Source of the DNA: Haloterrigena turkmenica DSM 5511
Lineage (GTDB): Archaea > Halobacteriota > Halobacteria > Halobacteriales > Natrialbaceae
Reading direction: 5' to 3'
Assembly: GCF_000025325.1 (NCBI RefSeq)
Contig: NC_013744.1
Coordinates: 1-64,000 of the forward strand
Length of the DNA: 64,000 nt
Part shown: positions 1,014 through 43,603 of the stretch, piece by piece
How the letters are laid out: each line of letters opens with the position of its first letter
How positions within the stretch are numbered: the first letter of the stretch is position 1
The notes under the pieces: model-generated
The model's database searches: none
Seen by the model: the letters and a program-made list of their open reading frames with translations, nothing else
Told to the model about the DNA's origin: nothing
Program-made: the position numbers and the translations under genes

Positions 1014-1394
1014 CTACTGCGGCGTGAAGACGACGAATCGATGGTCGTCCGTTTCGCGGACGTCGACCGCTACCGGAAGGCCGACTTCGACGTCTCCGCC
1101 GTCGGGATCGACGTTCTCGAGGCGACCGGTCAACCGAACCGGCCCGAACGAGGCGATCGCGAGCGGGTACGGCGCGTCGGCCTCGAACTGCGGCGCCGGA
1201 ACGCGGATGATCGTGTGCGATTCGACTTCGCCGCGCTCGGGAAGCGACCGTCGCTCGAGGCTCGCGTCGCCGCAGTCCGGACACACGTGTCGCGGCGGCA
1301 GCGACGCGTGTCCGTTCGAGCACTCGAGGAAGTACCCTTCTCCGGCGGCCAGCGCGTCGACAAAGGAATCGAAGGCAGTACGAGGTTCGCTCAT
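1014..1394 (-). CDS. DUF35 (OB-fold plus zinc-ribbon) acyl-CoA-associated protein
   Basis: This 126-residue protein has the DUF35 layout: an N-terminal helix, a rubredoxin-like zinc-ribbon (one Cys and a His, then CPDC) and a C-terminal OB-fold. DUF35 proteins form complexes with archaeal-type thiolases and with SCP2-thiolase-like aldolases, where they bind or shuttle the CoA ester. The ATG at 1394 is chosen because a perfect GGAGGT lies 6 bases upstream. The gene follows the thiolase at 1441-2607 on the same strand and is almost certainly co-transcribed and translationally coupled to it. The metal site looks slightly degenerate, because the first half has only one Cys with a His nearby. Confidence 0.85.
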   Translation of the reverse strand: MSEPRTAFDSFVDALAAGEGYFLECSNGHASLPPRHVCPDCGDASLERRSLPERGEVESHTIIRVPAPQFEADAPYPLAIASFGPVRLTGRLENVDPDGGDVEVGLPVAVDVRETDDHRFVVFTPQ

Positions 1395-1406
1395 GCAACC
1401 ACCTCC
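1391..1406. repeat. 16-base direct repeat, copy 1 (copy 2 at 1441-1456)
   Basis: The sequence TCATGCAACCACCTCC occurs identically at 1391-1406 and 1441-1456. Read on the minus strand it carries a GGAGGT ribosome-binding site, the codons for EVVA and an ATGA stop/start overlap. The 50-base offset is not a multiple of three. Confidence 0.9.
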
Positions 1407-1444
1407 GGACGGTCGTCCGGCGTAGCTGCACTCACGTCGTTCAT
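1391..1444 (-). CDS. Possible 17-residue minigene between thiolase and DUF35 genes
   Basis: An ATG at 1444 overlaps the thiolase stop (ATGA) and opens a 17-codon frame ending in EVVA and TGA. That stop in turn overlaps the ATG of the DUF35 gene. Its Shine-Dalgarno sequence (1451-1456) and its own end are copies of the same 16-base unit. It may be a real small peptide or only a translational-coupling relay created by a short duplication. No homolog is recognised. Confidence 0.35.
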   Translation of the reverse strand: MNDVSAATPDDRPEVVA

Positions 1445-2607
1445 GCAACCACCTCCAGTACGTGCACGGTCACACTGGCGACGGTTCCGCCGGCGTTGTG
1501 CGTGATCGCCGTCTCGGCATCACTAACGGCGTCGCTGTTGACGTGGTCGCCGCGGAGCAACTTCGTTAACTCCACGATCTGTGCCGTCCCCGTCGCGCCG
1601 ACCGGGTGTCCCTTCGCCTTCAACCCGCCCGATAGGTTGACGGGCAGGTCGCCGTCGCGGGTCGTCTCGCCGTCGCGCGCCGCTTGATACCCCGTCCCCC
1701 GGTCGTAGAAGCCGAGCGACTCGAGCGCCAACACCTCAGCGATGGTGAAGCAGTCGTGGACCTCCGCGAGGTCGACGTCGTCAGGTCCGATCGACGCGTC
1801 GGCGTACGCCTCTTCGGCCGCTCGCTCGGCGGCCGGAGTCCGCGTGAGCGAGGCCCGGTCCTGCAGCGCGAGCTGATCCGTCCCCTGTCCGGTCCCCGTG
1901 ATCGAGACCGGCGCGTCGAGGTCGCGCTCGCGAGCGTACTCGTCGCTGACCAGCACCGCCGCGCTCGCACCGTCCGTAATCGGACTCGCGTCGTAGACCC
2001 CGATCGGGTCGGCGACCAGCGGCGCCTCGAGGACGTCGTCGACGCTGATCTCCCGCTGGTACTGCGCGAGTTCGTTCTCGAGCGCGTGGGCGTGGTTCTT
2101 CACCGCGATTTCGGCGAGGTCGGCTCTGGTCGCGCCGTGCTCGGCGAAGTACGCGTTCGCCATGAGCGCGTAGGCGCCGGGGAAGGTCATCCCGGCTCGC
2201 CCCTCGTACAGCTCGTCGCCGGCCGTCGCGAGCGCCTCGGTGACGAACGACGTCGGCTCGTTCGTCATTCGCTCCATGCCGCCGACGAGCAGGACGTCGG
2301 CTTCGCCGCCGCGGATCTTCGACACCGCCTCGCGGACGGCGACGCCGCTCGACGTGCACGCGCTTTCGAATCTCGTTGCCGGTACCGATAGCCCGGCGGC
2401 GTCGGCCATTAACGGCCCCTGGTGGTTCTGCCCCTCGGCGAACGCGCCCATGAAGTTCCCGTAGAACAGCGCGTCGATGTCGCCTCGAGGAACGTTCGAA
2501 TCATCGATCGCCTCGTTGCTCGCCGAACCGAACAGTTCGCGTCCGGTCCGTTCGGGATGGCTGTCGAACGGAGTCATCCCTACGCCCGCAATTCTTACGC
2601 TTGTCAT
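1441..2607 (-). CDS. Thiolase family protein (acetyl-CoA acetyltransferase type, catalytic Cys present)
   Basis: This 388-residue thiolase-fold protein keeps the nucleophilic cysteine at about residue 84 (ESACTSSG) and the GHP motif near the C-terminus (KAKGHPVGATG). The second catalytic position has HNAGG instead of the bacterial CxG, as is usual in archaeal thiolases paired with DUF35. It should cleave beta-ketoacyl-CoA to acetyl-CoA and a shortened acyl-CoA, or run the reverse condensation. The ATG at 2607 is preferred to a GTG six bases upstream. The DUF35 partner follows directly. No HMG-CoA synthase is adjacent, so a catabolic role is more likely than mevalonate synthesis. Confidence 0.9.
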   Translation of the reverse strand: MTSVRIAGVGMTPFDSHPERTGRELFGSASNEAIDDSNVPRGDIDALFYGNFMGAFAEGQNHQGPLMADAAGLSVPATRFESACTSSGVAVREAVSKIRGGEADVLLVGGMERMTNEPTSFVTEALATAGDELYEGRAGMTFPGAYALMANAYFAEHGATRADLAEIAVKNHAHALENELAQYQREISVDDVLEAPLVADPIGVYDASPITDGASAAVLVSDEYARERDLDAPVSITGTGQGTDQLALQDRASLTRTPAAERAAEEAYADASIGPDDVDLAEVHDCFTIAEVLALESLGFYDRGTGYQAARDGETTRDGDLPVNLSGGLKAKGHPVGATGTAQIVELTKLLRGDHVNSDAVSDAETAITHNAGGTVASVTVHVLEVVA

Positions 2608-3264: not shown

Positions 3265-4401
3265 ATGCTTGCGCTATCGGACGAACAGCAGATGGTAGTC
3301 TCTTCACTCGAGCAACTCGCCGAACAGGAGTTCGCGGACAAGGCGTTTACCTGGGAGGGCGAACCACCGATGGAGAACGTCGAATTACTCGCCGAACAGG
3401 GATTTCTCGGAATCAACATCGCCGAAGAGTACGGCGGCGGCGGCATGAGTGAGTTCGAAGCCATGCTGACGATCGAGGCCGTCGGACGAGTCTGTCCCGA
3501 CACGGCCGAGTACCTCTACAACCAGCAGATGGTGGCCCCCCGCGCCATCGAGATGTTCGGCAGCGAAGCGGTGAAGGAACGGTACCTCCCCGGCGTGACG
3601 GCCGGCGAAACGAGCGTCGCGGTGGCGATTTCGGAACCGGAAGCCGGCTCCGACGTCGGATCGATGTCGACGACGGTCGAAGAACGCGACGGCGAACTCG
3701 TCCTCAACGGGGAGAAAATCTGGGTCAGTCACGTCGAACAGGCCGACGCGGCGGTCGTTTGGGCGAAGTTCCCCGAGGGACTGGGCTCGCTCGTCCTCGA
3801 TCTCGACGACGACGGCGTCGAGATCGCCCAACACTACACCAACATGGCGGATCACGTCCAGACGCAGTTCTACATGGAGGACATCGTCGTCCCCGAGGAG
3901 AACGTCCTCACGCGCGGCAAGGAGGGATTCAAGGACCAGCTCAAGGCGCTCAACTGGGAGCGACTCGGCAGCGCGACCCTCTCGAACGCGATCGCCGGCT
4001 GCGCGATCGACCACGCGCTCGAGTACGCCCAGCAGCGCGAGCAGTTCGGGCAGCCGATCGGCGACTTCCAGGGCATCGAGTGGAAGCTCGCGGACATGGT
4101 CAAGCAACTCGAGGGGTCGCGCGCGCTGACCTACCGCGCGGCGGTCAACGCCCACGAGCAGGGACGGATCCCGGATCGCCTCGACGCCTCGATCGCGAAG
4201 CTCACCTCCGGAGAGATGGTCGAAGACGTCGTCAGCGAGGCGCTGCAGATCCACGGCGCGAACGGCTACCAGCGCGAGCACCCGCTCGAGTACCTGTACA
4301 GGGTGGCTCGCGGTCGCCGTCTCGCCGCCGGAACCGACGAAATCCAGAAGAACACGATCGCCAGCGTGCTGAAAAGCGACGGGCTGCCGTCGCTGACGTA
4401 G
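3265..4401 (+). CDS. Acyl-CoA dehydrogenase family flavoprotein
   Basis: This 378-residue protein has the full acyl-CoA dehydrogenase layout: N-terminal helical domain, middle beta domain with the FAD/substrate motif ISEPEAGSD at about residues 122-130, and C-terminal helical domain ending in AAGTDEIQ. It should introduce an alpha,beta double bond into an acyl-CoA and pass electrons to Etf. The Glu of the usual EGT motif is Ala here (LAAGT). A candidate base is Glu232 in NWERL, the position used by isovaleryl-CoA dehydrogenase and by many actinobacterial FadE enzymes acting on branched or steroid acyl-CoAs. It is monocistronic, with its own TATA-like box. Confidence 0.93.
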   Translation: MLALSDEQQMVVSSLEQLAEQEFADKAFTWEGEPPMENVELLAEQGFLGINIAEEYGGGGMSEFEAMLTIEAVGRVCPDTAEYLYNQQMVAPRAIEMFGSEAVKERYLPGVTAGETSVAVAISEPEAGSDVGSMSTTVEERDGELVLNGEKIWVSHVEQADAAVVWAKFPEGLGSLVLDLDDDGVEIAQHYTNMADHVQTQFYMEDIVVPEENVLTRGKEGFKDQLKALNWERLGSATLSNAIAGCAIDHALEYAQQREQFGQPIGDFQGIEWKLADMVKQLEGSRALTYRAAVNAHEQGRIPDRLDASIAKLTSGEMVEDVVSEALQIHGANGYQREHPLEYLYRVARGRRLAAGTDEIQKNTIASVLKSDGLPSLT

Positions 4402-4843: not shown

Positions 4844-5341
4844 ATGCCCGACGAATTAGACCCATCAGTTCAGACAGACGAGGTAAACGCGGAGTTCAAG
4901 TATCCGTTCCACTGGGATCTCGACTTCTCCCTCAACATCGGCGAGGACAACCGGAAGTTCTTCGAAGCGATCGAGGACAAGAAGATTCTCGGGAAGAAGT
5001 GCCCCGAGTGCGGTGCGACATTCGTCCCGCCGCAGGAGGTCTGCGTCGAGTGCTACGTCGAGACCGAGGAATGGGTCGAGGTCGAACAGCACGGCGTCGT
5101 CGAGAGTTACACGGCGTGTTTCTTCGAGTTCGGTGACCTGCCCGAGCCGCCGTACATCACCGCGGCCATTCGGGTGGCCGACTCGGACATCTGCATGCTG
5201 CACTTCATCGACGACATCGAGTACGAGGGCCACGACGAGCTAGTCGAGAAACTCCACAAGGGCACCGAAGTGGAGCCGGTCTGGGCCGATGAGCGCGAGG
5301 GCCACATCAAGGACATCACGCACTGGCGACCGGTGGAGTGA
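4844..5341 (+). CDS. DUF35 (OB-fold plus zinc-ribbon) partner of thiolase-like proteins
   Basis: This 165-residue protein has an N-terminal helical segment, a complete four-cysteine zinc-ribbon (CPECG and CVECY, about residues 53-70) and a C-terminal OB-fold. Proteins of this shape bind thiolases or SCP2-thiolase-like aldolases. The known bacterial example is the DUF35 half of ChsH2, which partners the aldolase Ltp2 in cholesterol side-chain cleavage. Here it heads an operon with two thiolase-fold proteins that lack the thiolase nucleophile. It is longer than the DUF35 protein at 1014-1394 and has an intact metal site. Confidence 0.9.
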   Translation: MPDELDPSVQTDEVNAEFKYPFHWDLDFSLNIGEDNRKFFEAIEDKKILGKKCPECGATFVPPQEVCVECYVETEEWVEVEQHGVVESYTACFFEFGDLPEPPYITAAIRVADSDICMLHFIDDIEYEGHDELVEKLHKGTEVEPVWADEREGHIKDITHWRPVE

Positions 5342-5342
5342 G

Positions 5343-5429
5343 ATGTTCGAGGACACGCGAGTGAATACGGTCAACCCACCGGGATACATGAACGAGAATT
5401 ACCAAGCGGAGGAACGAACGGATGTCTAG
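5343..5429 (+). CDS. Possible 28-residue small ORF between DUF35 and thiolase-like genes
   Basis: An ATG two bases after the DUF35 stop opens a 28-codon frame whose TAG at 5427-5429 overlaps the first codons of the next gene (ATG at 5422). It has a believable composition (start MFEDTRVNTVNPPGYM) but no recognised family. It could be a real small subunit, or a leader that carries ribosomes from one gene to the next. Confidence 0.3.
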   Translation: MFEDTRVNTVNPPGYMNENYQAEERTDV

Positions 5430-6564
5430 AGTAGCGATCGCCGGGCACGGCACGGTCGGCTTCGCGGAAGACACGAAGGGACGGTCCGACTCCGAGATGG
5501 TGCTCGAAGCGTCCATGGCCGCCCTCGAGTCGGCGGACGTGAGCCACGAGGAGGTCGACGCCATCATCTACACCGGTCAGGACGCCTACGACGGGTCCGC
5601 GATCAGTGACGGGCAGCGGGTGTCCGCCGCGGGCGGGTACCGGAAACCGTTCATGCGGATCCAGAACGGTGGCGGCACCGCGATCCACCAGGCGGCGGCG
5701 AAGATCCGCTCCGGGAAGGCGGACGTCGTCTCGATCGTCGCAGCCGATTCGGTACGGGCCGATCCGAGCGCGCTCAGTTGGACGTCTCACGAGGCGCTGT
5801 ACCACCGCCCGTTCGGGCAAAACCACAACCAATCGCTCGGCCTGCTCGCGACCGCCCACCAGGAGGAACGCGGTGTCACCGCCGAACAGTTCGCCCAGGT
5901 CGCGGCGAAGAACTACGAGGCCGCGGCGGACAACGACGTCGCCCACAGGCAAGAGGCCTACTCGGTCGACGACGTGCTCGATGCCGAGCCGGCGGCCAGC
6001 CCGCTCACTGAATTGATGCTCCGGCCGAACTCCTTCGGGGCCGCCGTCTGCGTCCTCGTCAGCGAGGAAGTCGCCGAGGAGAAGGGGAACGCCCGCTCTT
6101 GGATCACCGGGACGGGCCTCGCCACGGGTAAGTACTGGTACCGAGACATGAGCGACCGGCTCGGCCAGCCAACGCTCGCCCAGGCGGCCGACGCCGCGTT
6201 CGACGAATCGGGCGTCACCATCGACGACGTCGACGCGGCGGAGCTCGCCGCGTACTCGCCGACGCTCGAGCTTACGGCGTACGAGGCGATGGGCCTCTGT
6301 GATGAAGGCGAAGGCATCGAACTCGTCGAAGACGGCGTCACCGCGCCGGACGGCTCGTTCCCGGTGAACCTCTCCGGCGGACCGCTAGCGACGAGTCCAC
6401 CGAATTCAGGTGGCATCTACCGGGCGATTGCCGCCTCGCAGGTCGTCGAAGGCGACCTGGGTGACGACTCTGCCGAACGCGTCCTCCTCGCAGACAACGA
6501 CATGCATCTGGGCGAACCGGGTCGCACCGACGCCGTCGTGATCCTGGAAGGTGGTGCCGCATGA
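5422..6564 (+). CDS. Thiolase-fold protein lacking the catalytic cysteine (SCP2-thiolase/aldolase-like), copy A
   Basis: This 380-residue protein has the two-half thiolase fold, but the nucleophilic Cys position is Gln81 (RIQNGGGTAIH). The C-terminal GHP motif is also lost; the region reads NLSGGPLATSPPNSGG. It cannot run a normal Claisen thiolysis. With the DUF35 protein just upstream, the best analogy is the Ltp2 type of retro-aldolase, which splits a beta-hydroxyacyl-CoA formed after side-chain hydration. The gene overlaps the next one by four bases (ATGA), so A and B probably form a heteromer. Alternatives are a non-catalytic scaffold or a different C-C lyase. Confidence 0.85.
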   Translation: MSRVAIAGHGTVGFAEDTKGRSDSEMVLEASMAALESADVSHEEVDAIIYTGQDAYDGSAISDGQRVSAAGGYRKPFMRIQNGGGTAIHQAAAKIRSGKADVVSIVAADSVRADPSALSWTSHEALYHRPFGQNHNQSLGLLATAHQEERGVTAEQFAQVAAKNYEAAADNDVAHRQEAYSVDDVLDAEPAASPLTELMLRPNSFGAAVCVLVSEEVAEEKGNARSWITGTGLATGKYWYRDMSDRLGQPTLAQAADAAFDESGVTIDDVDAAELAAYSPTLELTAYEAMGLCDEGEGIELVEDGVTAPDGSFPVNLSGGPLATSPPNSGGIYRAIAASQVVEGDLGDDSAERVLLADNDMHLGEPGRTDAVVILEGGAA

Positions 6565-7730
6565 GCCGGGACGTCGCCGTGGTCGGCGTCGGCTACTCCG
6601 AGCCCGAGAGCTTCACGGACTACCGGCTCTCGACCCAGACGAAAGAGGAACAGGCGTTCACGGCAGTGAGCAACGCCCTGGAGCACGCCTCGGTCGAGGC
6701 CGACGACGTCGACGCGACGATGTTCTGCACCGTCGACGGCTTCGAGGGCACGTTCCGCGTCGAGCGGACCCTCGAGGTACTCGGCCTGGGCAACGACGTC
6801 CCGGTCCTGAGCGTCAACACCGGCGGCACCGCCGGCGGGAGCGGCGTCAAGGTCGCCCACGAGTACATCGCATCGGGCAAGTACGACGTCGCCGTCGTCT
6901 ACGGCTCGCCGTCGTTCGACTCGGTCGTCGAGGCCCAGCCCGTGATGAACACGAACGCTGATCCGCAGTTCGAGCGCAACTTCGTCACGGCGATCCAGAT
7001 GGGCGCCCTGCCCAGTTCGGGCTACATGGAGATCTCGGGTGCGACCGAGGAGGACCTCGCGGAGGTCGCCGCGAAGAACTACCGGGCGGCTGCCCGCAAC
7101 CCCTACGCGCACCGCAACGAGGAGCGGTCGGTCGAGGAGATCCTCGACTCGCCGATGGTCTGCTGGCCGCTCCGCCGGGCGATGACCTGCCCGGTCTCCT
7201 CGGGCTCGGCGGCGATGGTCGTCGCGAGCGAGGACGTCGCCACCGAGGTTCGGGACAACCCCGTCTGGATCGATGAGATCGACAGCACGAGCAACACGTT
7301 CTGGACCGGCTACCGGACCTACGACTGGTTCCCGAAGCTGAAGGAACTGTCCGACCAGGTCTACGAGAACGCCGACATCGACGATCCGCTCGAGGAGTTC
7401 GACGTCGCCGAGACGTTCAACCCGTACATCCCGTTCGAGATGATGGAGTACGAGGCGCTGGGCCTCTGCGAGAAGGGCGAGGCCAAACACCTCGTGCGCG
7501 ACGGCGTCACCGACGCCGACGGCGACCTCCCGGTCAATATGTCCGGGGGCACCCTCTGTACGAACTCCGGGATCTGCGCGTCGCTCTCGCGACACTCCGA
7601 AGTCGTCTTACAGCTGATGGGCGAGGCCGGCGACCGCCAGGTGGAGGGCGCCGAGAAGGGGCTCTCTCACTCCTGGGGAGCCAATCTCGGCCAGTTCCAC
7701 CAGATGGCGATCTTCTCGACCGAGCGGTAG
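6561..7730 (+). CDS. Thiolase-fold protein lacking the catalytic cysteine, copy B
   Basis: This 389-residue thiolase-fold protein starts inside the stop of copy A. The Cys position is Ala91 (NTGGTAGGSGVKV). The GHP motif is replaced by NMSGGTLCTNSGICAS, and the last conserved block reads SHSWGANLGQ. Like copy A it belongs with SCP2-thiolase-like proteins, not with true acetyltransferases. The two are clearly homologous but diverged, which suggests complementary subunits. The gene ends at a perfect 7-base hairpin and is followed by a convergent crotonase gene. The substrate is unknown; a beta-hydroxy- or beta-ketoacyl-CoA of cyclic or branched type is the natural guess. Confidence 0.85.
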   Translation: MSRDVAVVGVGYSEPESFTDYRLSTQTKEEQAFTAVSNALEHASVEADDVDATMFCTVDGFEGTFRVERTLEVLGLGNDVPVLSVNTGGTAGGSGVKVAHEYIASGKYDVAVVYGSPSFDSVVEAQPVMNTNADPQFERNFVTAIQMGALPSSGYMEISGATEEDLAEVAAKNYRAAARNPYAHRNEERSVEEILDSPMVCWPLRRAMTCPVSSGSAAMVVASEDVATEVRDNPVWIDEIDSTSNTFWTGYRTYDWFPKLKELSDQVYENADIDDPLEEFDVAETFNPYIPFEMMEYEALGLCEKGEAKHLVRDGVTDADGDLPVNMSGGTLCTNSGICASLSRHSEVVLQLMGEAGDRQVEGAEKGLSHSWGANLGQFHQMAIFSTER

Positions 7731-9056: not shown

Positions 9057-9998
9057 TCAGTCGATGTCGAAGAGCCGGGCTGCGTTCTCGCCGAGGAGTG
9101 CATCGATTTCGTCGCGGGTGAACCGCTGCCCGCTCGTCCGTTCGCCGAGCGCACGGACGTTCTCGATCCACTCTTCTTTGGGGTGAACCGGATCGAACGC
9201 CGGGTCGTCGGTTCCCCACAGCATCCGATCCGAGCCGACGGCGTCCGTGAGTCGGCGGACGGCGGTGGCGAACTCCTTGGGGCGTTCTTTCGCGCGCTCT
9301 TGCCACGCGCTAATGTCGACGTGCAGCCCGCAGTTCGGTTTGCTGTCGGCGATGGCGTAGAGGTCGCGCCACCACCCGAAGGACATGTGGGCGGCGATGA
9401 TGTCGAGGTCCGGGAAGTCCGCGAGCGCTCGGTCGAGGTGGTTGGGGTGGGAACACTCGCTGTACAGCGGCGCGAAGATCGGTCCGGTGTCGGTGAGGAC
9501 GCGCTTGTCGTGATCCTGGACGACCTCGAGGAGTTCGTAGGTCTCCTCGTCGTGGATGTAAAAGCCCGCCGTCGGGTGGAGTTTCAGCCCGTCCATGTCC
9601 CACTCGCCGAGGGCGGTGTCGATGTGCTCGACCGCGTTCTCGCGCCGGGGGTCGATCGTCGCGAGGACGGAGATCCGGTCCGGATTATCGTCCCGGAAGT
9701 CGGCGATCGCCCGGTTGACCTCCTCGATCGGCGTCTCCGGTTCGCCGAGCGCCAAGCCGAAGTCCACGCCGAACACGACCTGGTGGTCGATGTTCGCCTC
9801 GTCCATTCGCTCGAGGAGTTTCTCTCCGGTCGGATCCCAGTACGTCGGGATGTACTTCGATCGGATCGTCTCGGGATCGACCGTCTTCCCCCGTTTCTCG
9901 TTTTGTCGAACGGCGATGTCTACGAACGCGTCCCAGAAGGCCGGCGGCAGCCAGTCCTCCGCCCAGAGGTGGGAGTGTACGTCGATGATCGGTGCCAT
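9057..9998 (-). CDS. Amidohydrolase-family (amidohydrolase_2, ACMSD-like) metal-dependent hydrolase or decarboxylase
   Basis: This 313-residue TIM-barrel protein begins with the metal-binding HSH motif (residues 8-10 of MAPIIDVHSHLW). It has further ligand candidates in LKLHPTAG, in IIAAHMSFG and in the Asp of WGTDDPAFD. Family members hydrolyse C-N or C-C bonds or decarboxylate aromatic and alicyclic acids. The ATG at 9998 is chosen because the family normally begins just before the HxH; a start 15 bases upstream would also be in frame. In this island it could open a ring or act on a cleavage product. No specific substrate can be assigned. Confidence 0.82.
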   Translation of the reverse strand: MAPIIDVHSHLWAEDWLPPAFWDAFVDIAVRQNEKRGKTVDPETIRSKYIPTYWDPTGEKLLERMDEANIDHQVVFGVDFGLALGEPETPIEEVNRAIADFRDDNPDRISVLATIDPRRENAVEHIDTALGEWDMDGLKLHPTAGFYIHDEETYELLEVVQDHDKRVLTDTGPIFAPLYSECSHPNHLDRALADFPDLDIIAAHMSFGWWRDLYAIADSKPNCGLHVDISAWQERAKERPKEFATAVRRLTDAVGSDRMLWGTDDPAFDPVHPKEEWIENVRALGERTSGQRFTRDEIDALLGENAARLFDID

Positions 9999-10168
9999 GC
10001 GTATGCAACCCATTCGATAGCGGGGGCCGAATAACTTCCGATGCGACCCGAAACTCCCGCTCGATCGGAACGGTCGCTCGAGTGTGGTGTCGCTTCTCGG
10101 TCGGTGTCGTCGGTCCCGTACTCTCGGCTGCATATTGGTCCGTCGGCTGCGCAAACGCGAGCGGCGTA

Positions 10169-13447: not shown

Positions 13448-13903
13448 ATGGAAGTACAACAGCTGAACGGTCAGGAACTACCGACCGGAGAGATTTCGGT
13501 CGAACGGTGGAAGGCGTTCCTCTGGGCGGACGCGACGAGGAACGACGAGGACGCGTACCGATACGAGGAACGAGCGGCCGAACTCGGGGAAGACGGACAG
13601 CTCGTCCCGCCGACGCTCTGCCAACACGTCGCCTTCGAGGCGACGGGCGGGATCGAAGCGACGCTCGGACAGGTCAGCGACGACTGGAAGTCCGGCGCCG
13701 CGCTCGGCCAACTGCGCGTCGAGTTCCACGCGCCGATGCATGTCGACGAACCCTACAGGGTGACCGGCGAGATCGCGAACATCGAGCAGAAGGACGGCTC
13801 ACAGGGAAAGTTGACGATCATCACGTACGCCTACGAGGTGACGACGACCGACGACGAACCGGTGTACGACCTCGAAGCGGACCTCATCCTCATGGACACA
13901 TGA
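13448..13903 (+). CDS. Hotdog-fold protein, MaoC-like N-terminal partner (non-catalytic half)
   Basis: This 151-residue hotdog protein resembles the N-terminal half of double-hotdog hydratases (MaoC_dehydratase N type). The hydratase Asp/His pair is absent; the corresponding helix region reads NDEDAYRYEERAAELG followed by LVPPTLCQHVAF. It overlaps the next gene by four bases (ATGA), and that partner does carry the catalytic pair. The layout matches two-subunit enoyl-CoA hydratases of the ChsH1/ChsH2 kind, where one chain builds the acyl pocket and the other supplies catalysis. Such enzymes take bulky acyl groups. Transcription probably starts at the TATA-like box at 13409. Confidence 0.82.
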   Translation: MEVQQLNGQELPTGEISVERWKAFLWADATRNDEDAYRYEERAAELGEDGQLVPPTLCQHVAFEATGGIEATLGQVSDDWKSGAALGQLRVEFHAPMHVDEPYRVTGEIANIEQKDGSQGKLTIITYAYEVTTTDDEPVYDLEADLILMDT

Positions 13904-14337
13904 ACTACGACGACCTCTCGGAGGGGGACTCCCTCCCGACGCGGACGATCGAGAACATCCGACGGGAAGACACGAAACTGATGGCCGCGATCCTGCAGGA
14001 TCCGTACCCACCGCACTTCGATCACGAGCGCTGCGACGAACTCGACTTCCCCGGCCTGCTCCATCAGGGGCCGGCAAACCTCTCGTACGTGCTTCAGGCG
14101 GTCTCCGAGACCCTCGAGTCGCCGGCCGACGTCCGGTCAATCGACGTCCGCTACCAGGAGATGGTGTTCGCGGATCAGACAGTGCACGCGGAGGCGGTCG
14201 TCGAGGAGAAGCGGATCGACGGCGACGACGGGGTCGTCACCTTCTCGGTCGAACTGAAAACTGCGGCCGACGATATCGTGATGGCCGGTACCGTCGACGC
14301 GACCGTCCCGCGAACCGACGAGGCGTCGATCGAATGA
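13900..14337 (+). CDS. Hotdog-fold enoyl-CoA hydratase subunit (MaoC-like, catalytic half)
   Basis: This 145-residue protein starts at the ATGA overlap with the preceding gene. Its hydratase-2-like motif reads LQDPYPPHFDHERCDEL, with Asp and His in the positions of the catalytic D-x-N-P-x-H motif. LHQGPANLSYV follows, matching the central hotdog helix. With the partner at 13448-13903 it should form a heteromeric (R)-specific enoyl-CoA hydratase. Each chain is about half the size of a eukaryotic MFE2 hydratase. The frame extends upstream without stops, but that part is a shadow of the first gene; the ATG at 13900 is clear. Confidence 0.85.
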   Translation: MNYDDLSEGDSLPTRTIENIRREDTKLMAAILQDPYPPHFDHERCDELDFPGLLHQGPANLSYVLQAVSETLESPADVRSIDVRYQEMVFADQTVHAEAVVEEKRIDGDDGVVTFSVELKTAADDIVMAGTVDATVPRTDEASIE

Positions 14338-23999: not shown

Positions 24000-25136
24000 T
24001 CACTCCCGCCGGAACTCGTCGGCGGGAACGAGATTCGACCTGGCGCGGCGGAGGGGCTGTACGAAGTCCTCGGGGGGAAGCCACGGAATTTCGATATCGT
24101 CGTCATCGTATACGGTTTCGACCGCGTTCAAGAGGGCGTCGTCGTCGCCGATGTCGCGGCCGGCCACCGCCTCGTTGAGCCGCTCGACGGCGTCGAACCC
24201 GGGCCGGTGGAACATGTCGCCGGTGTACTGCACGGCGACGATCTCGTCGGACGGGTCGACGCGAACGCTGGCTTTGATCAGTTTCCGGCCTTTGTACGCG
24301 ACCTCGGCGACCCGATCGTCGGGGTCGGCCTCGTCGATGAGGCGCTGCGTCGAGTACCGTTCGAACCACTCCTCGGAACCGTAGAACTCGCGGTGGTCCT
24401 CGATTGTCTGCCGCTCTTCGTCGGTGAGCGATCCCGGTTCGGGGTCGCCGCCCGCCAGCAACGCGAGATTCTCCGTCGCCGCGTCGATCACCGCCTCGAG
24501 GTCGAGGTCGGGAGCGACCTCCTCGATCGACGTCATCCGCCCCTCCGCGCTGTCGGTGTCCTTGTCCTCGAACTTCTCCTTCGGAAGCCGGAGGACGTCG
24601 TCGATGATCTCGAACTCGTCGGGGCCGTAACTCCGGTAGATGACGTTGGCGAAGACGCCCCAGACGCCGTCCTGGTAGCCCGCTCCGGAAACACCGATCT
24701 TGAGCAGCTGTCCGTCGTCTTCCGGGACTAGCTCGACGTCGCCCCCGTCCCGATACGTGGCGTTCTCGATGCCGGCGTCGCGAAGCGCGCCGGCCATCGC
24801 CTCGCCGGCGAGGTCGATGTATTCGGACATCGTCCGTTCGCCTCGGTCCGGGAAGAACGCGTACAACACGGGCGTGTGATCGTCGCGGAAGAATCCCGTC
24901 CCGCCGCTGACGTTAAATCTGCGGCCGTAATCGACGCCGTACTCCGCGGCGCGCTCGCGGTCGATGAGCGCCGCGTCTTCGACGGGACCGATCTCGAGGA
25001 ACAGATCGGAGTCGAACGTCCACTGCATGATCGTCGGCGGCGATTCGCCGTCGGCGACGGCGTCGAGGACCGTTCGTTCGATCGCGGGATACGTGTCGGG
25101 TCCGATCTGAACGTCGAGTGTGCGTACTGTGGTCAT
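24000..25136 (-). CDS. Lipoate-protein-ligase-like (BPL/LplA/LipB family) protein, copy 1
   Basis: This 378-residue protein has the LplA catalytic-domain signature: RRFNVSGGTGFFRDDHTPVL resembles the RRxSGGGAVxHD motif, and LLKIGVSGAG is near the expected catalytic Lys. From about residue 290 it has an LplB-like C-terminal domain (YKGRKLIKASVRVD, then YTGDMFHRPG). It should bind or transfer lipoate or a related acyl group through an adenylate. No lipoyl-domain protein (GcvH, E2) is encoded nearby. A paralog at 40772-41932 shares KFEDKDTDS and overall architecture. Its location beside an SDR and a crotonase is unusual for a cofactor ligase. Confidence 0.78.
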   Translation of the reverse strand: MTTVRTLDVQIGPDTYPAIERTVLDAVADGESPPTIMQWTFDSDLFLEIGPVEDAALIDRERAAEYGVDYGRRFNVSGGTGFFRDDHTPVLYAFFPDRGERTMSEYIDLAGEAMAGALRDAGIENATYRDGGDVELVPEDDGQLLKIGVSGAGYQDGVWGVFANVIYRSYGPDEFEIIDDVLRLPKEKFEDKDTDSAEGRMTSIEEVAPDLDLEAVIDAATENLALLAGGDPEPGSLTDEERQTIEDHREFYGSEEWFERYSTQRLIDEADPDDRVAEVAYKGRKLIKASVRVDPSDEIVAVQYTGDMFHRPGFDAVERLNEAVAGRDIGDDDALLNAVETVYDDDDIEIPWLPPEDFVQPLRRARSNLVPADEFRRE

Positions 25137-39036: not shown

Positions 39037-40674
39037 ATGGTAGCGAATAGCCCAGAGGAGTGGGATCGAGAAGCCGACGTCGTGATCGTCGGTTCCGGCG
39101 GTGCGGGTCTCGTCGCCGCACTCGCAGCCGAGTCGGAAGACATACTGGTTCTGGAAAAAGCGGCATCCATCGGCGGCACGACCGCCGTCTCCGGTGGGGG
39201 CCTCTGGTTGCCGAACAGCAGACCGGTCCTCGAAGAAGCCGGCGAACAACCGGCCGAGCAGATTCACGCCTACATCCGACGGTGCGCCGGCGAGCGAGTC
39301 GACGACGAACTGATCGAGACGTTCGTGGAACTCGCCCCCGACGTCGTCGACTTCGTCGAGTCCGAGACGGCCCTCGAGTTCCAGTTCGCCGGCTATCCCG
39401 ATTACCACACGGACTGGGAGGAAGCGAGCGACGAGGGGAACATGATCGAGCCGACGCTGTACGACGGGACGCGCCTCGGTGAGAACCTCGACGACATCCG
39501 GGACGATCCCCACCACACGTTCCCCGTCCCCGCCAGCGAGATCTACGAGGCCGGAGGCCACGCGAAGTTCGCCACCGTCGCCGACTTCGACGAACTCGAG
39601 CGGCGAAACGAGGCGGACCTGCTCGCCACCGGCGAGGCGCTGGTCGCCGGCCTCTACGAGGCCTGTCTGGACGCGGGCGTGGCGTTCGAAACGGAGGCCC
39701 CGGCCCGCGAACTCGTCGTCGACGACGGCGAGGTCGTCGGCGTGGTCGCGGCGGTCGACGAGGAGGAGACGTTCGTCCGCGCCGGAGCCGTCGTCATCGC
39801 CGCCGGCGGGATGGACTGGGACGAGGACATGCGCGAGAACTTCCTCCGTGGGCCGGTCACCGGACCGGCCACGCCGCCGCAGGTCGAAGGCGACGGCATC
39901 AAACTGGGGATGGACGTCGGCGCCGACCTCGGCAACACCAACGAGGCGTGGTGGTTCCCGACGGCGCACGTGCCCGGCCAGCGCTGGGAGGACGGCTCGC
40001 CGCTGTACAGCATGGTCTGGGGTCGAACACTTCCCGGGTCGATCATGGTCAACGAGGACGGCGAGCGCTTCTGTAACGAGGCCGGCAACTACCACGATCT
40101 CGGAAAGCGATTCCACACGTTCGATCCGGAGACGTACGAGTACGAGAATCTGCCCGCCTATCTCGTGGTCGACAGCGGCTATCGGGAACAGTACAGCCTC
40201 CTCACGGTAGCGCCGGGCGAAGAAGCTCCTGACTGGGTCGCCGAGGGCGAGACGCTGCGGGACCTAGCCGTGGAACTCGATGTCGATCCCGACGGCCTCG
40301 AGGCGACCGTCGAGGCGTTCAACGAGCACGCCCGCGAGGGCGTCGATCCGGCATTCGGTCGCGGCGAGACCGCGTACGACAATTTCGTCGGCGACCCCGA
40401 CACCGACCATCCGAACCTGGCGCCCCTGAACGAACCGCCCTTCTACGCCGTCGAGGTCCACAGCGGCATCATCGGGACGAAAGGCGGACTGATCACGCGG
40501 TCGGACGGAACGGTTCTCGACGTCGACGCCGATCCGATCGACGGATTGTACGCCGCGTCGAACAGCACGGCCCACGTGATGGGAATGGGATACGCCGGTG
40601 CGGGCGCCACGCTCGGGCCGAACGTTGTTTTCGGCTATCAGGCCGGGAAACACGCGAGCGAGTTCGCGGACTGA
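39037..40674 (+). CDS. 3-ketosteroid-1-dehydrogenase-like FAD-dependent oxidoreductase 1
   Basis: This 545-residue flavoprotein has an N-terminal FAD Rossmann motif (VVIVGSGGAGLVAAL), then GGTTAVSGGGLWLPNS and GYPDYHTDW, both typical of KstD-like enzymes. The C-terminus reads MGMGYAGAGATLGPNVVFGY. Tyr519 and Gly523 match the Tyr-x3-Gly pair that binds the keto group in Rhodococcus KstD1 (Tyr487/Gly491). It should dehydrogenate a cyclic ketone next to the carbonyl. Fumarate-reductase-like homologs are the main alternative, but the PDYH and GYAGAG blocks favour KstD. It precedes a lipoate-ligase-like gene by 97 bases. Confidence 0.85.
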   Translation: MVANSPEEWDREADVVIVGSGGAGLVAALAAESEDILVLEKAASIGGTTAVSGGGLWLPNSRPVLEEAGEQPAEQIHAYIRRCAGERVDDELIETFVELAPDVVDFVESETALEFQFAGYPDYHTDWEEASDEGNMIEPTLYDGTRLGENLDDIRDDPHHTFPVPASEIYEAGGHAKFATVADFDELERRNEADLLATGEALVAGLYEACLDAGVAFETEAPARELVVDDGEVVGVVAAVDEEETFVRAGAVVIAAGGMDWDEDMRENFLRGPVTGPATPPQVEGDGIKLGMDVGADLGNTNEAWWFPTAHVPGQRWEDGSPLYSMVWGRTLPGSIMVNEDGERFCNEAGNYHDLGKRFHTFDPETYEYENLPAYLVVDSGYREQYSLLTVAPGEEAPDWVAEGETLRDLAVELDVDPDGLEATVEAFNEHAREGVDPAFGRGETAYDNFVGDPDTDHPNLAPLNEPPFYAVEVHSGIIGTKGGLITRSDGTVLDVDADPIDGLYAASNSTAHVMGMGYAGAGATLGPNVVFGYQAGKHASEFAD

Positions 40675-40771: not shown

Positions 40772-41932
40772 ATGGTACGGAGAATCGACGTTCGCGGGGA
40801 GACCGTCGGGTACTGGGATGCCATTGACGAACTGATGGCGAAACAGATGCACGAAGGGACGTTCGAGCCCACGCTCGTGGTCATGCACTGGGATGTGGAG
40901 ACGCCGTGTCTCGATCTCGGTACGTACGAGGACGCCGATCGGGTCGACGTCGACCTGGCGCGCGAGCGCGGCTTCACCGTCGGCAGGCGGTACGCGTTCG
41001 CGGGAGGAACCGCAGTCCACACGCCGGACTTCCCCAATTACATGCTGTACTACCGGAAGGAGGACACGAGTATCCTCGAGGAGGCCGATGCCAGCGGTCT
41101 CGCGGACGTCGCCGGCCTCGAGTCGATCGGGTTCGAAGCCGAGTACGACTCCATCGGCGACGTCGAGATCGTCAAGGACGACGCGAAGGTGAAGGTGATG
41201 GCCGGAGCGGCCGCGACGATTCACGTCCCCGACTACTGGGTCGCGACGCTGTCGGTCATCTGGGACTTCCCGGAGGAGGGAGCGATACTCGACGACGCGG
41301 TGAGCATTCCGCGGGAGAAGTTCGAGGACAAGGACACCGACTCGCTCACCGGTCGCATGCAGCCACTCTCCGAGGTTCTCGAGGAGGTAGAGATCGACGC
41401 GACGAAAGAGGAGGTGATCGACGCGATCGCCCGGGCGAACGTCGATCGGCTGATCGGTCCGGACGCCGAACTCGTCGACGACGAGTGGACCGACGAGGAG
41501 CGGGCGTTCCTCGATCGGATGGCCCCCTTCTTCGAGAGCGACCCGTGGATCAATCGAGTATCGACGGCGCGGATGTGCCGGCGAGCGCCCGCGGACTACG
41601 CGCTCGGCCAGGCCGCCTACAAGTCGCGGAAACTGATCAACGTCAGTGCGATTATCGACGACGACGAGAAAATCCACGATATCATCATCGGCGGTGACCT
41701 CTACATCCGACCCCAGCCGACGATCACCTCGGGCGGCGTCCTCGAGGAGCTGGCGTCGGAGTTAGAGGGGGTTCCGATAACCGACGAGGACGCGCTTCTC
41801 GAAACCGTAGAACGCGTGTTCGATCGGCCGGAAACCGAAGCGCCGGGAATCGAACCGAGAGATATCGTCGAACCGATCCACCGAGCGAACAGCAATACGA
41901 TGCAGGTCTCCGAGTACCTGGCCGACCGCTGA
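40772..41932 (+). CDS. Lipoate-protein-ligase-like protein, copy 2
   Basis: This 386-residue protein is paralogous to the one at 24000-25136, with the same two-part layout. The LplA motif is worn: GRRYAFAGGTAVHTPDF replaces RRxSGGGAVxHD, and KVKVMAGAAATIHV stands near the expected Lys. The C-terminal LplB-like domain (YKSRKLINVSAIID, IIGGDLYIRP) is kept. It is six bases upstream of the second KstD-like gene, so the two are clearly co-transcribed. A ligase for a lipoyl domain is the default, but no acceptor is encoded here. It may act on an unusual acyl group or only bind it. Confidence 0.75.
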   Translation: MVRRIDVRGETVGYWDAIDELMAKQMHEGTFEPTLVVMHWDVETPCLDLGTYEDADRVDVDLARERGFTVGRRYAFAGGTAVHTPDFPNYMLYYRKEDTSILEEADASGLADVAGLESIGFEAEYDSIGDVEIVKDDAKVKVMAGAAATIHVPDYWVATLSVIWDFPEEGAILDDAVSIPREKFEDKDTDSLTGRMQPLSEVLEEVEIDATKEEVIDAIARANVDRLIGPDAELVDDEWTDEERAFLDRMAPFFESDPWINRVSTARMCRRAPADYALGQAAYKSRKLINVSAIIDDDEKIHDIIIGGDLYIRPQPTITSGGVLEELASELEGVPITDEDALLETVERVFDRPETEAPGIEPRDIVEPIHRANSNTMQVSEYLADR

Positions 41933-41938
41933 TCGCCC

Positions 41939-43603
41939 ATGGCCACAAAAGATACTCCCTCGAACGCGAGCGAGACGGTCCACGTCGACGTCGTCGTCGT
42001 GGGTTCGGGCGTCGGCGGCCTCGCCGCGGCGGTGACCGCCGCGGACGCCGATCTCTCAGTCGTCGTCCTCGAGAAGGGATCGGTCTTCGGCGGCTCGAGC
42101 GGACTCTCGGGTGCGCAGCTGTGGATGCCGACGAACCGTCATATGGACGACGTCGGCGTCGACGACTCCGTCGAGGAAGGCATCGACTACATGGCCGCAC
42201 TCGCCGGCGATTTCTACGCGAACCGCGGCGCAGCGCGGCGCTACATCGAGTCCGCCACAGAGGCCGTCGCGTACTTCGAGGACGAGATCGGTCTCGAACT
42301 GCAGGTGATCGGCGGGATGCCTGACTATCACACGTCGTATCCCGGAGCGAAAGCAGAGGGACGGTACCTCGAGCCGCGACCGCTTCCGCGAGACGAGATC
42401 CCGGCGACACTGCCGAACTCGCCGCACCTGCCGGGCGGCGCGACCAACGACGAACTCCTGACGTGGGGCGGCGCGTTCACGGTCGGAGCGTGGGACTGGG
42501 ACGTGATCGACCGTCGTCGCGAGGAGAACGTCGCGACGATGGGGACCGCCCTCATTGGGTACTTCCTCCGCGCGGCGGACGAACGGGGCGTCGACTACCA
42601 TACGAACGCGACCGTGACCGACCTCGTAGACGACGGCGACGACGTCGTCGGCGTCGAAGTAGCGCACCGATCGCTCCCGTCGGAAATCCGGGCGCGCGAG
42701 GGCGTCGTCCTCGCGACCGGCGCCTACGACTGGAACCCGGATATGGTCGAGTCGTTCGAGGACACGCCGTCCGAACACGTGGTCTCCGCGGCCGTGCCGA
42801 CCGCGACCGGCGACGGCCACCGACTGGCCGCGAACCGCGGCGCGAAGCTCGGGACCTATCCGCCGATCGGCGGGGCGAAGGGGTTCTTCATCGCCGTTCC
42901 CGACCGGGAGTTCCTCGGCGAGCCGCTGTACCGCTACTGTTACAACGTCGGCCTCCCGCACGCCATCGCGATCAATGCCGACGGGGAGCGGTTCTGCGAC
43001 GAGTCGTTCTACCCCGATCAGGCCGCCGAACTGTACGATCCGACCGGAGAGTACCCGCAGTTTCCCTCGTACATGGTGTTCGACGAATCGTATCGCCGGC
43101 GGTATCCGCTCGGGAACACGAAGCCGGGCGACTCGTATCCGGACGAGTTTCTCGCGGCGAAAGCGACCGATCTCGAGGGACTCGCCGAACAGCTGAACAT
43201 CGACGGCGCGACGCTGCAGTCGACGGTCGAGCGATTCAACGAGGGCGCTCGCCGCGGCGAGGACCCCGAGTTCGGATGCGGCGAAAACGAGTGGGCTAAC
43301 CTGTGGTGTGGTGATCCAACCCACGACCCGAACCCGAACCTCGGTCCGATCGACGAGCCGCCGTTCTACGCCGTTCGCCTCTACGTCGGACTCTCGAGCA
43401 TGAGCAACACCGGTCTGGTGACCGACGATCACGGGCGAGTCGTCGACTGGAACGAGCGACCGATCGACGGCCTCTACGCCACCGGTTCAGTTTGCGCGCC
43501 GGTCGAATGGGGAATCGGATACCAGAGCGGCCTTCAAAACGGACGGTCGCTCACGTACGGGTTCCTCGCCGGTACCCATCTCAGTTCACGGGCTGACGGC
43601 TAA
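41939..43603 (+). CDS. 3-ketosteroid-1-dehydrogenase-like FAD-dependent oxidoreductase 2
   Basis: This 554-residue flavoprotein resembles the one at 39037: VVVVGSGVGGLAAAV, GGSSGLSGAQLWMPTN and GMPDYHTSYPGA are present. At the C-terminus the motif is WGIGYQSGLQNGRSL; the Tyr (528) is kept but the Gly of the KstD Tyr-x3-Gly pair is Leu532. The oxyanion-like site for the ketone may therefore differ, suggesting another substrate or reaction. It is translationally close to the upstream Lpl-like gene (gap of six bases). Electron transfer to Etf or quinone is not visible from sequence. Confidence 0.82.
   Translation: MATKDTPSNASETVHVDVVVVGSGVGGLAAAVTAADADLSVVVLEKGSVFGGSSGLSGAQLWMPTNRHMDDVGVDDSVEEGIDYMAALAGDFYANRGAARRYIESATEAVAYFEDEIGLELQVIGGMPDYHTSYPGAKAEGRYLEPRPLPRDEIPATLPNSPHLPGGATNDELLTWGGAFTVGAWDWDVIDRRREENVATMGTALIGYFLRAADERGVDYHTNATVTDLVDDGDDVVGVEVAHRSLPSEIRAREGVVLATGAYDWNPDMVESFEDTPSEHVVSAAVPTATGDGHRLAANRGAKLGTYPPIGGAKGFFIAVPDREFLGEPLYRYCYNVGLPHAIAINADGERFCDESFYPDQAAELYDPTGEYPQFPSYMVFDESYRRRYPLGNTKPGDSYPDEFLAAKATDLEGLAEQLNIDGATLQSTVERFNEGARRGEDPEFGCGENEWANLWCGDPTHDPNPNLGPIDEPPFYAVRLYVGLSSMSNTGLVTDDHGRVVDWNERPIDGLYATGSVCAPVEWGIGYQSGLQNGRSLTYGFLAGTHLSSRADG

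Follow-up and report, generated by a model that had tools for sequence, protein, structure and literature searches.

A DUF35 protein and two thiolase-fold proteins that lack the catalytic residues of thiolases form a rare trio in haloarchaea and Actinobacteria: a putative heteromeric carbon–carbon lyase

Introduction

What reaction might be catalysed by two adjacent thiolase-fold proteins when neither has retained the cysteine of a thiolase? This question is raised by a locus in Haloterrigena turkmenica DSM 5511 (contig NC_013744.1), where a gene for a DUF35 protein is followed by two thiolase-like genes, here named TL1 and TL2. The first 64,000 nucleotides of the contig, referred to here as the window, were analysed. 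The original prediction saw in the three products a lyase resembling the steroid side-chain aldolase Ltp2 and its DUF35 partner, and a three-chain archaeal enzyme of this type was considered new.

The trio and its gene neighbourhood

The genes considered here are as follows.

1014–1448, minus strand: second DUF35 protein, outside the trio (OB_ChsH2_C, 44.7 bits)
1441–2607, minus strand: true thiolase of the archaeal type that has both the Cys and the GHP His, used as a control and outside the trio (PRK06064, 439.6 bits, above the cut-off)
3265–4401, plus strand: acyl-CoA dehydrogenase just upstream of the trio, presumed to catalyse a neighbouring step (Pfam Acyl-CoA_dh)
4844–5341, plus strand: DUF35 protein of the trio, zinc ribbon and OB fold (zf-ChsH2, 33.7 bits; OB_ChsH2_C, 26.4 bits)
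5422–6564, plus strand: TL1, thiolase-fold partner on the Ltp4 side (Thiolase_C_1, tree, alignment columns, AlphaFold)
6561–7730, plus strand: TL2, thiolase-fold subunit on the Ltp3 side, presumed from its sequence to be catalytic (tree, invariant columns, AlphaFold)
13448–13903, plus strand: MaoC-type FAS1_DH_region half of a split hydratase (PF13452)
13912–14337, plus strand: MaoC_dehydratas half of the split hydratase (PF01575), with the D..H pair in DPYPPH

The three ORFs of the trio were found where they had been predicted and in the order DUF35–TL1–TL2, with the stop of TL1 and the start of TL2 sharing the ATGA at 6561–6564, and all three are intact and conserved. Both TL1 and TL2 matched Thiolase_N/Thiolase_C_1 in Pfam. 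The OB_ChsH2_C match of the trio DUF35 protein was slightly below the Pfam gathering score. This protein, which we propose to be the scaffold subunit, contains the predicted four-cysteine ribbon (CPECG...CVECY), but the ribbon is not a general trait of the module. All four Cys have been lost from the trio DUF35 protein of L016, L017, L018, L039, L046, L050, L052, L054 and L056, which include several Rhodococcus-type loci and one haloarchaeal locus (L039). As such partners exist, zinc binding must be dispensable for the module.

Orthologues of the upstream acyl-CoA dehydrogenase (69–89 %) were found near the trio in four other loci (L013, L036, L037 and L020). In L020, homologues (59 % in each case) of the FAS1_DH_region and MaoC_dehydratas halves of the hydratase lie about 1.5 kb and about 1 kb downstream of TL2, respectively. 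No D..H hydratase pair was seen in the sequence of the FAS1_DH_region half, which is probably the inert one, and the MaoC_dehydratas half with its D..H pair is probably active. CoA ligases are also encoded in the window. The second DUF35 gene overlaps the true thiolase gene on the same strand, and its product is the probable partner of that thiolase.

The actinobacterial clusters that include the trio contain acyl-CoA dehydrogenases, MaoC hydratases, SDRs and CoA ligases. Some are ordered dehydrogenase–dehydrogenase–MaoC–trio, and Rhodococcus operons have paired acyl-CoA dehydrogenases and a MaoC gene beside the trio or a trio-like set. These neighbours support a pathway in which dehydrogenation and hydration precede C–C cleavage, and the context supports a branched or cyclic substrate without fixing which.

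Two further families recur in haloarchaeal loci. An orthologue (72–77 %) of an Amidohydrolase_2 protein (9057–10004, minus strand) lies close to the trio at five further haloarchaeal loci. The products of 24000–25136 (minus strand) and 40772–41932 (plus strand) are paralogues that are 34 % identical, one matching LplA-B_cat (42.6 bits) and the other without a family match. Homologues occur at three trio loci (L014, L039 and L040), and in L038 the gene follows TL2 directly; a lipoate-ligase-fold protein accompanies the trio in haloarchaea.

Active-site residues of TL1 and TL2

In alignments, the nucleophile Cys, the His of the HDCF motif and the His of the GHP motif were all missing from TL1 and TL2, and all three were present in the true thiolase at 1441–2607. 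The predicted loss of the nucleophile and the GHP His, and their retention in the true thiolase, was therefore confirmed; the residues named as replacing the nucleophile need correction. Ala91 had been assigned to this position in TL2, but Gly89 occupies it in the multiple alignment. TL1 has a nucleophile loop that is about three residues shorter, so that no residue aligns with the nucleophile and Gln81, the residue originally chosen, is not its equivalent but merely adjacent.

The Cys position is Gly in every row of TL2 (17/17), Ltp2 (7/7) and Ltp3 (6/6), and Cys in 12/12 rows of SCP2-type thiolases. The HDCF-His position is Phe in 17/17 TL2 rows, and both G89 and F286 are invariant across 35/35 TL2 sequences. 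Because both are fixed, chance or sequencing error can be excluded as the source of the loss and, judging from the alignments, the Cys/His replacement in TL2 is an old, fixed change.

The catalytic Tyr residues of Ltp2 are also absent. The position of Tyr294, a His in Cys thiolases, is occupied by Tyr in all rows of Ltp2 (7/7) and Ltp3 (6/6) as well as in two intermediate proteins, and by His in Ltp4; it is Phe286 in TL2, in the motif variants FNPY, FAPY, FSPY, FVPY and FNPL, and Ala276 in TL1, where the residue is inconsistent between sequences. The position of Tyr344, equivalent to the GHP His, is Asn335 in TL2 (Asn in 17/17 rows) and Ser325 in TL1. With no equivalents of Tyr294 or Tyr344, direct carry-over of the Ltp2 mechanism was ruled out. 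The bile acid aldolase CtSal requires Tyr302 and Cys304 within a YDCY motif (PMC12329534). As residues of both kinds have been replaced, neither thiolase chemistry nor that of a known aldolase can be read from TL2.

There are 49 invariant columns in TL2 over 26 sequences, compared to 17 in TL1 over 23, and this suggests that the active site is on TL2. Conserved residues of TL2 that are candidate proton-transfer groups, on the basis of sequence, are Asn335, His370 (Gln in 3/35), His184, Thr87/Thr90 and Gln378.

The AlphaFold monomers of TL1 (pLDDT 85.8) and TL2 (pLDDT 82.5) both gave thiolase-fold matches, including Ltp2 (6ok1) and Sal (9myr) for TL2, and PhlC and MucABC chains were also among the structural matches. 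The TL2 loop 126–142 was modelled with low confidence, yet it carries the invariant N130, T131 and E138. Part of the equivalent loop is disordered in both Ltp2 and Sal (PMC12329534).

Phylogeny of the thiolase-fold proteins

In a tree that included PDB sequences, TL1, TL2, Ltp3 and Ltp4 formed a single clade (100/99), with a sister group made up of Ltp2, Sal and 4u4e (98/94) and the Cys thiolases outside. In the tree without PDB sequences, TL1 grouped with Ltp4 (96/97) and TL2 with Ltp3 (96/93); support for these pairings fell to 75/93 and 76/91, respectively, when the PDB sequences were added. PhlC and TbSLP were not included in the trees. The suspected relationship to Ltp2 was thus upheld, as TL1 and TL2 fall in the aldolase branch, closest to Ltp3 and Ltp4 and then to Ltp2 and Sal, apart from the Cys thiolases, a placement that is well supported by the sequences. 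When PDB sequences were ranked by score, Cys thiolases were above Ltp2; kinship with them on this ground was set aside, as the trees place the clade elsewhere. In the thiolase-like genome paralogues L025, L027, L029 and L030, the nucleophile Cys is replaced by Ser (QTSS); the three that were included in the tree (L025, L029 and L030) cluster with Sulfolobus ST0096 (4yzo).

In the NCBIfam search, every match of TL1 and TL2 was below its cut-off, including TL2 to PRK08313 on the Ltp3 side (233 bits, cut-off 514) and TL1 to PRK07937 on the Ltp4 side (59.4 bits, cut-off 419), so no curated NCBI family names either protein. At L097, which is in the same genome as the trio locus L056, a PRK07937/PRK08313 pair adjoins members of FadA5, EchA19 and F420_Rv3520c, each above its cut-off. 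As this matches the published gene order Rv3520c-Rv3521-ltp4-ltp3 (PMC6429209), PRK07937 is taken here as Ltp4 and PRK08313 as Ltp3, on the basis of synteny and gene names rather than published sequences. A Tsukamurella plasmid carries a DUF35–thiolase–thiolase set close to genes for a P450 and a steroid thiolase, and the two thiolase-fold products score above the PRK07937 and PRK08313 cut-offs.

Distribution and origin

The trio is a rare accessory module. TL1 was found in 5 of 292 Halobacteria genomes (E ≤ 1e-70) and TL2 in 3 of the 297 actinobacterial genomes sampled (E ≤ 1e-110). Further loci in both haloarchaea and Actinobacteria came from plasmid records and a genome-wide scan using the TL2 alignment, and TL1, TL2 and DUF35 were adjacent in all 25 scan loci, contigs ending early aside. 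The actinobacterial hosts include Rhodococcus, Gordonia, Nocardia, Klenkia, Frankia, Pseudonocardia, Williamsia and Arthrobacter, amongst others, which rules out a system confined to archaea. As Actinobacteria share the trio and the related Ltp4/Ltp3 system already combines two Ltp proteins with DUF35, the view that the lyase is of a new, archaeal kind is unsupported.

It is plausible that the archaeal copies came from bacteria, given that the Ltp2, Ltp3 and Ltp4 relatives found here are bacterial. In the trees, however, the archaeal TL1 and TL2 were not nested within the actinobacterial copies.

Proposed function

We consider it most likely, with a probability of roughly 55 %, that the trio is a heteromeric enzyme catalysing the retro-aldol cleavage of a β-hydroxyacyl-CoA. 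We infer a physical complex in which TL1 and TL2 would form a heterodimer of thiolase fold held by the DUF35 subunit, with TL2 providing a remodelled active site that binds the CoA thioester and TL1 serving as a degenerate partner chain. The β-hydroxyacyl-CoA would be made by the acyl-CoA dehydrogenase and the split MaoC hydratase, and its β-hydroxyl would probably be tertiary, on a branched substrate. Thiolysis is barred for such a substrate, because a tertiary hydroxyl cannot be oxidised. Retro-aldol cleavage would release a ketone or aldehyde and a short acyl-CoA. As both Tyr of Ltp2 have been replaced, the proton-transfer groups of TL2 must differ. The idea of an Ltp2-like C–C lyase is thus retained for the aldolase-branch placement, the DUF35 neighbour at every locus and the dehydrogenase/hydratase context, but not for the Tyr mechanism or the steroid substrate.

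Some observations weigh against this best explanation. All TL2 have Phe where Ltp2 and Sal have their catalytic Tyr, and no residue was found that would serve as base instead; the MaoC pair is 6 kb from the trio in the window and is not near the trio at all loci; and many trio clusters also carry ordinary thiolases, SDRs or 3-hydroxyacyl-CoA dehydrogenases. In a literature search, no assay of any member of the TL1/TL2 clade was found.

Since the Tyr has been lost from all TL2, the chemistry may have changed, and the complex could act on CoA thioesters by retro-Claisen cleavage with water, by decarboxylation or by acyl transfer like that of PhlABC/MucABC. The PhlC and MucABC chains among the structural matches are in keeping with the last of these. 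However, PhlC retains its catalytic Cys (a C88S variant of a homologue is named among the matches of TL2) and TL2 does not, and TL1 groups with Ltp4 in trees from which PhlC itself is absent, and we regard such chemistry as unlikely, if worth serious consideration. A specific role as a steroid side-chain aldolase is more doubtful still. It would suit the kinship with Ltp3/Ltp4 and Ltp2, and the window encodes two flavoproteins (39037–40674 and 41939–43603, both plus strand) resembling KstD and 4-oxocyclohexanecarboxylate dehydrogenases, but both score far below the family cut-offs, and the actinobacterial trio clusters differ from the sterol clusters with FadA5 and EchA19 in which Ltp4/Ltp3 are found. 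No study of steroid side-chain degradation in haloarchaea came up in a literature search. That TL1 and TL2 are both catalytically dead and form a scaffold or regulatory assembly would account for the absence of known thiolase and aldolase catalytic residues from both, but is improbable given that the invariant columns of TL2, N130, T131 and E138 included, span two domains of life and that the module is a rare accessory set within catabolic clusters. A Cys-dependent thiolase with a displaced nucleophile is hardly credible, as C210, though invariant in TL2, is in a column outside the nucleophile loop where Ltp2 and Ltp3 have Cys as well and Cys thiolases vary, and the frequent Cys at position 332 is Ala in L020/L021, so that neither fits.

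Thiolase-fold aldolases are being redefined residue by residue (Tyr/Tyr in Ltp2, Tyr/Cys in Sal). The TL1/TL2 clade still has the thiolase fold, a DUF35 partner and, probably, the place in the pathway, yet all of those residues are missing, and it is therefore a natural test of which groups are required. This clade would also extend the two-subunit enzymes of the Ltp type to archaea, where it points to a way of degrading branched acyl-CoA. A heteromeric C–C lyase without Tyr or Cys, with the base and acid replaced by groups new to the superfamily and a dead second chain retained as partner, common to haloarchaea and Actinobacteria, is a possibility that we advance only tentatively.

Comparison with known systems

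The PhlABC/MucABC acyltransferases resemble the trio in having three components, two thiolase-superfamily chains and a DUF35 protein. PhlC depends on Cys for catalysis, and PhlA resembles KAS III. The benzoylsuccinyl-CoA thiolase BbsAB (7pxp) and the archaeal thiolase/HMG-CoA synthase/DUF35 complex (6esq) also combine a thiolase fold with DUF35, but both are true Cys thiolases and fall outside the clade.

The bile acid aldolase Sal-Shy(DUF35) (9myr; PMC12329534) shares with the trio the thiolase fold, the DUF35 partner and the lack of a nucleophile Cys. Sal belongs to the sister clade and is a single-chain homodimer with a catalytic YDCY motif, where TL2 reads FNPY. The steroid aldolase Ltp2-ChsH2(DUF35) (6ok1) has the same fold and partner, likewise carries Gly where thiolases have Cys, and occurs in a dehydrogenase–hydratase–aldolase gene context like that of the trio. 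It differs in that Ltp2 is a homodimer of one thiolase-fold chain, compared to the two chains of the trio, and has Tyr294 (in YDHF) and Tyr344, both lacking from the trio.

The closest counterpart is Ltp3-Ltp4 (Rv3523/Rv3522) with its Rv3521-type DUF35 protein, which a review describes as a heteromeric aldol-lyase that acts on branched sterol side chains (PMC6678751). Here too, two adjacent genes for Cys-less thiolase-fold proteins accompany a DUF35 gene, the gene order DUF35–TL1–TL2 corresponds to DUF35–Ltp4–Ltp3, and Asn at the GHP-His position is common to TL2, Ltp3 and Ltp4. However, Ltp3 retains Tyr at the Tyr294 position (IYVPF) where TL2 has Phe (FNPY/FAPY), the FadA5/EchA19 sterol neighbourhood was seen with Ltp3/Ltp4 only, and TL1 and TL2 fall in strongly supported sub-clades separate from those of Ltp4 and Ltp3.
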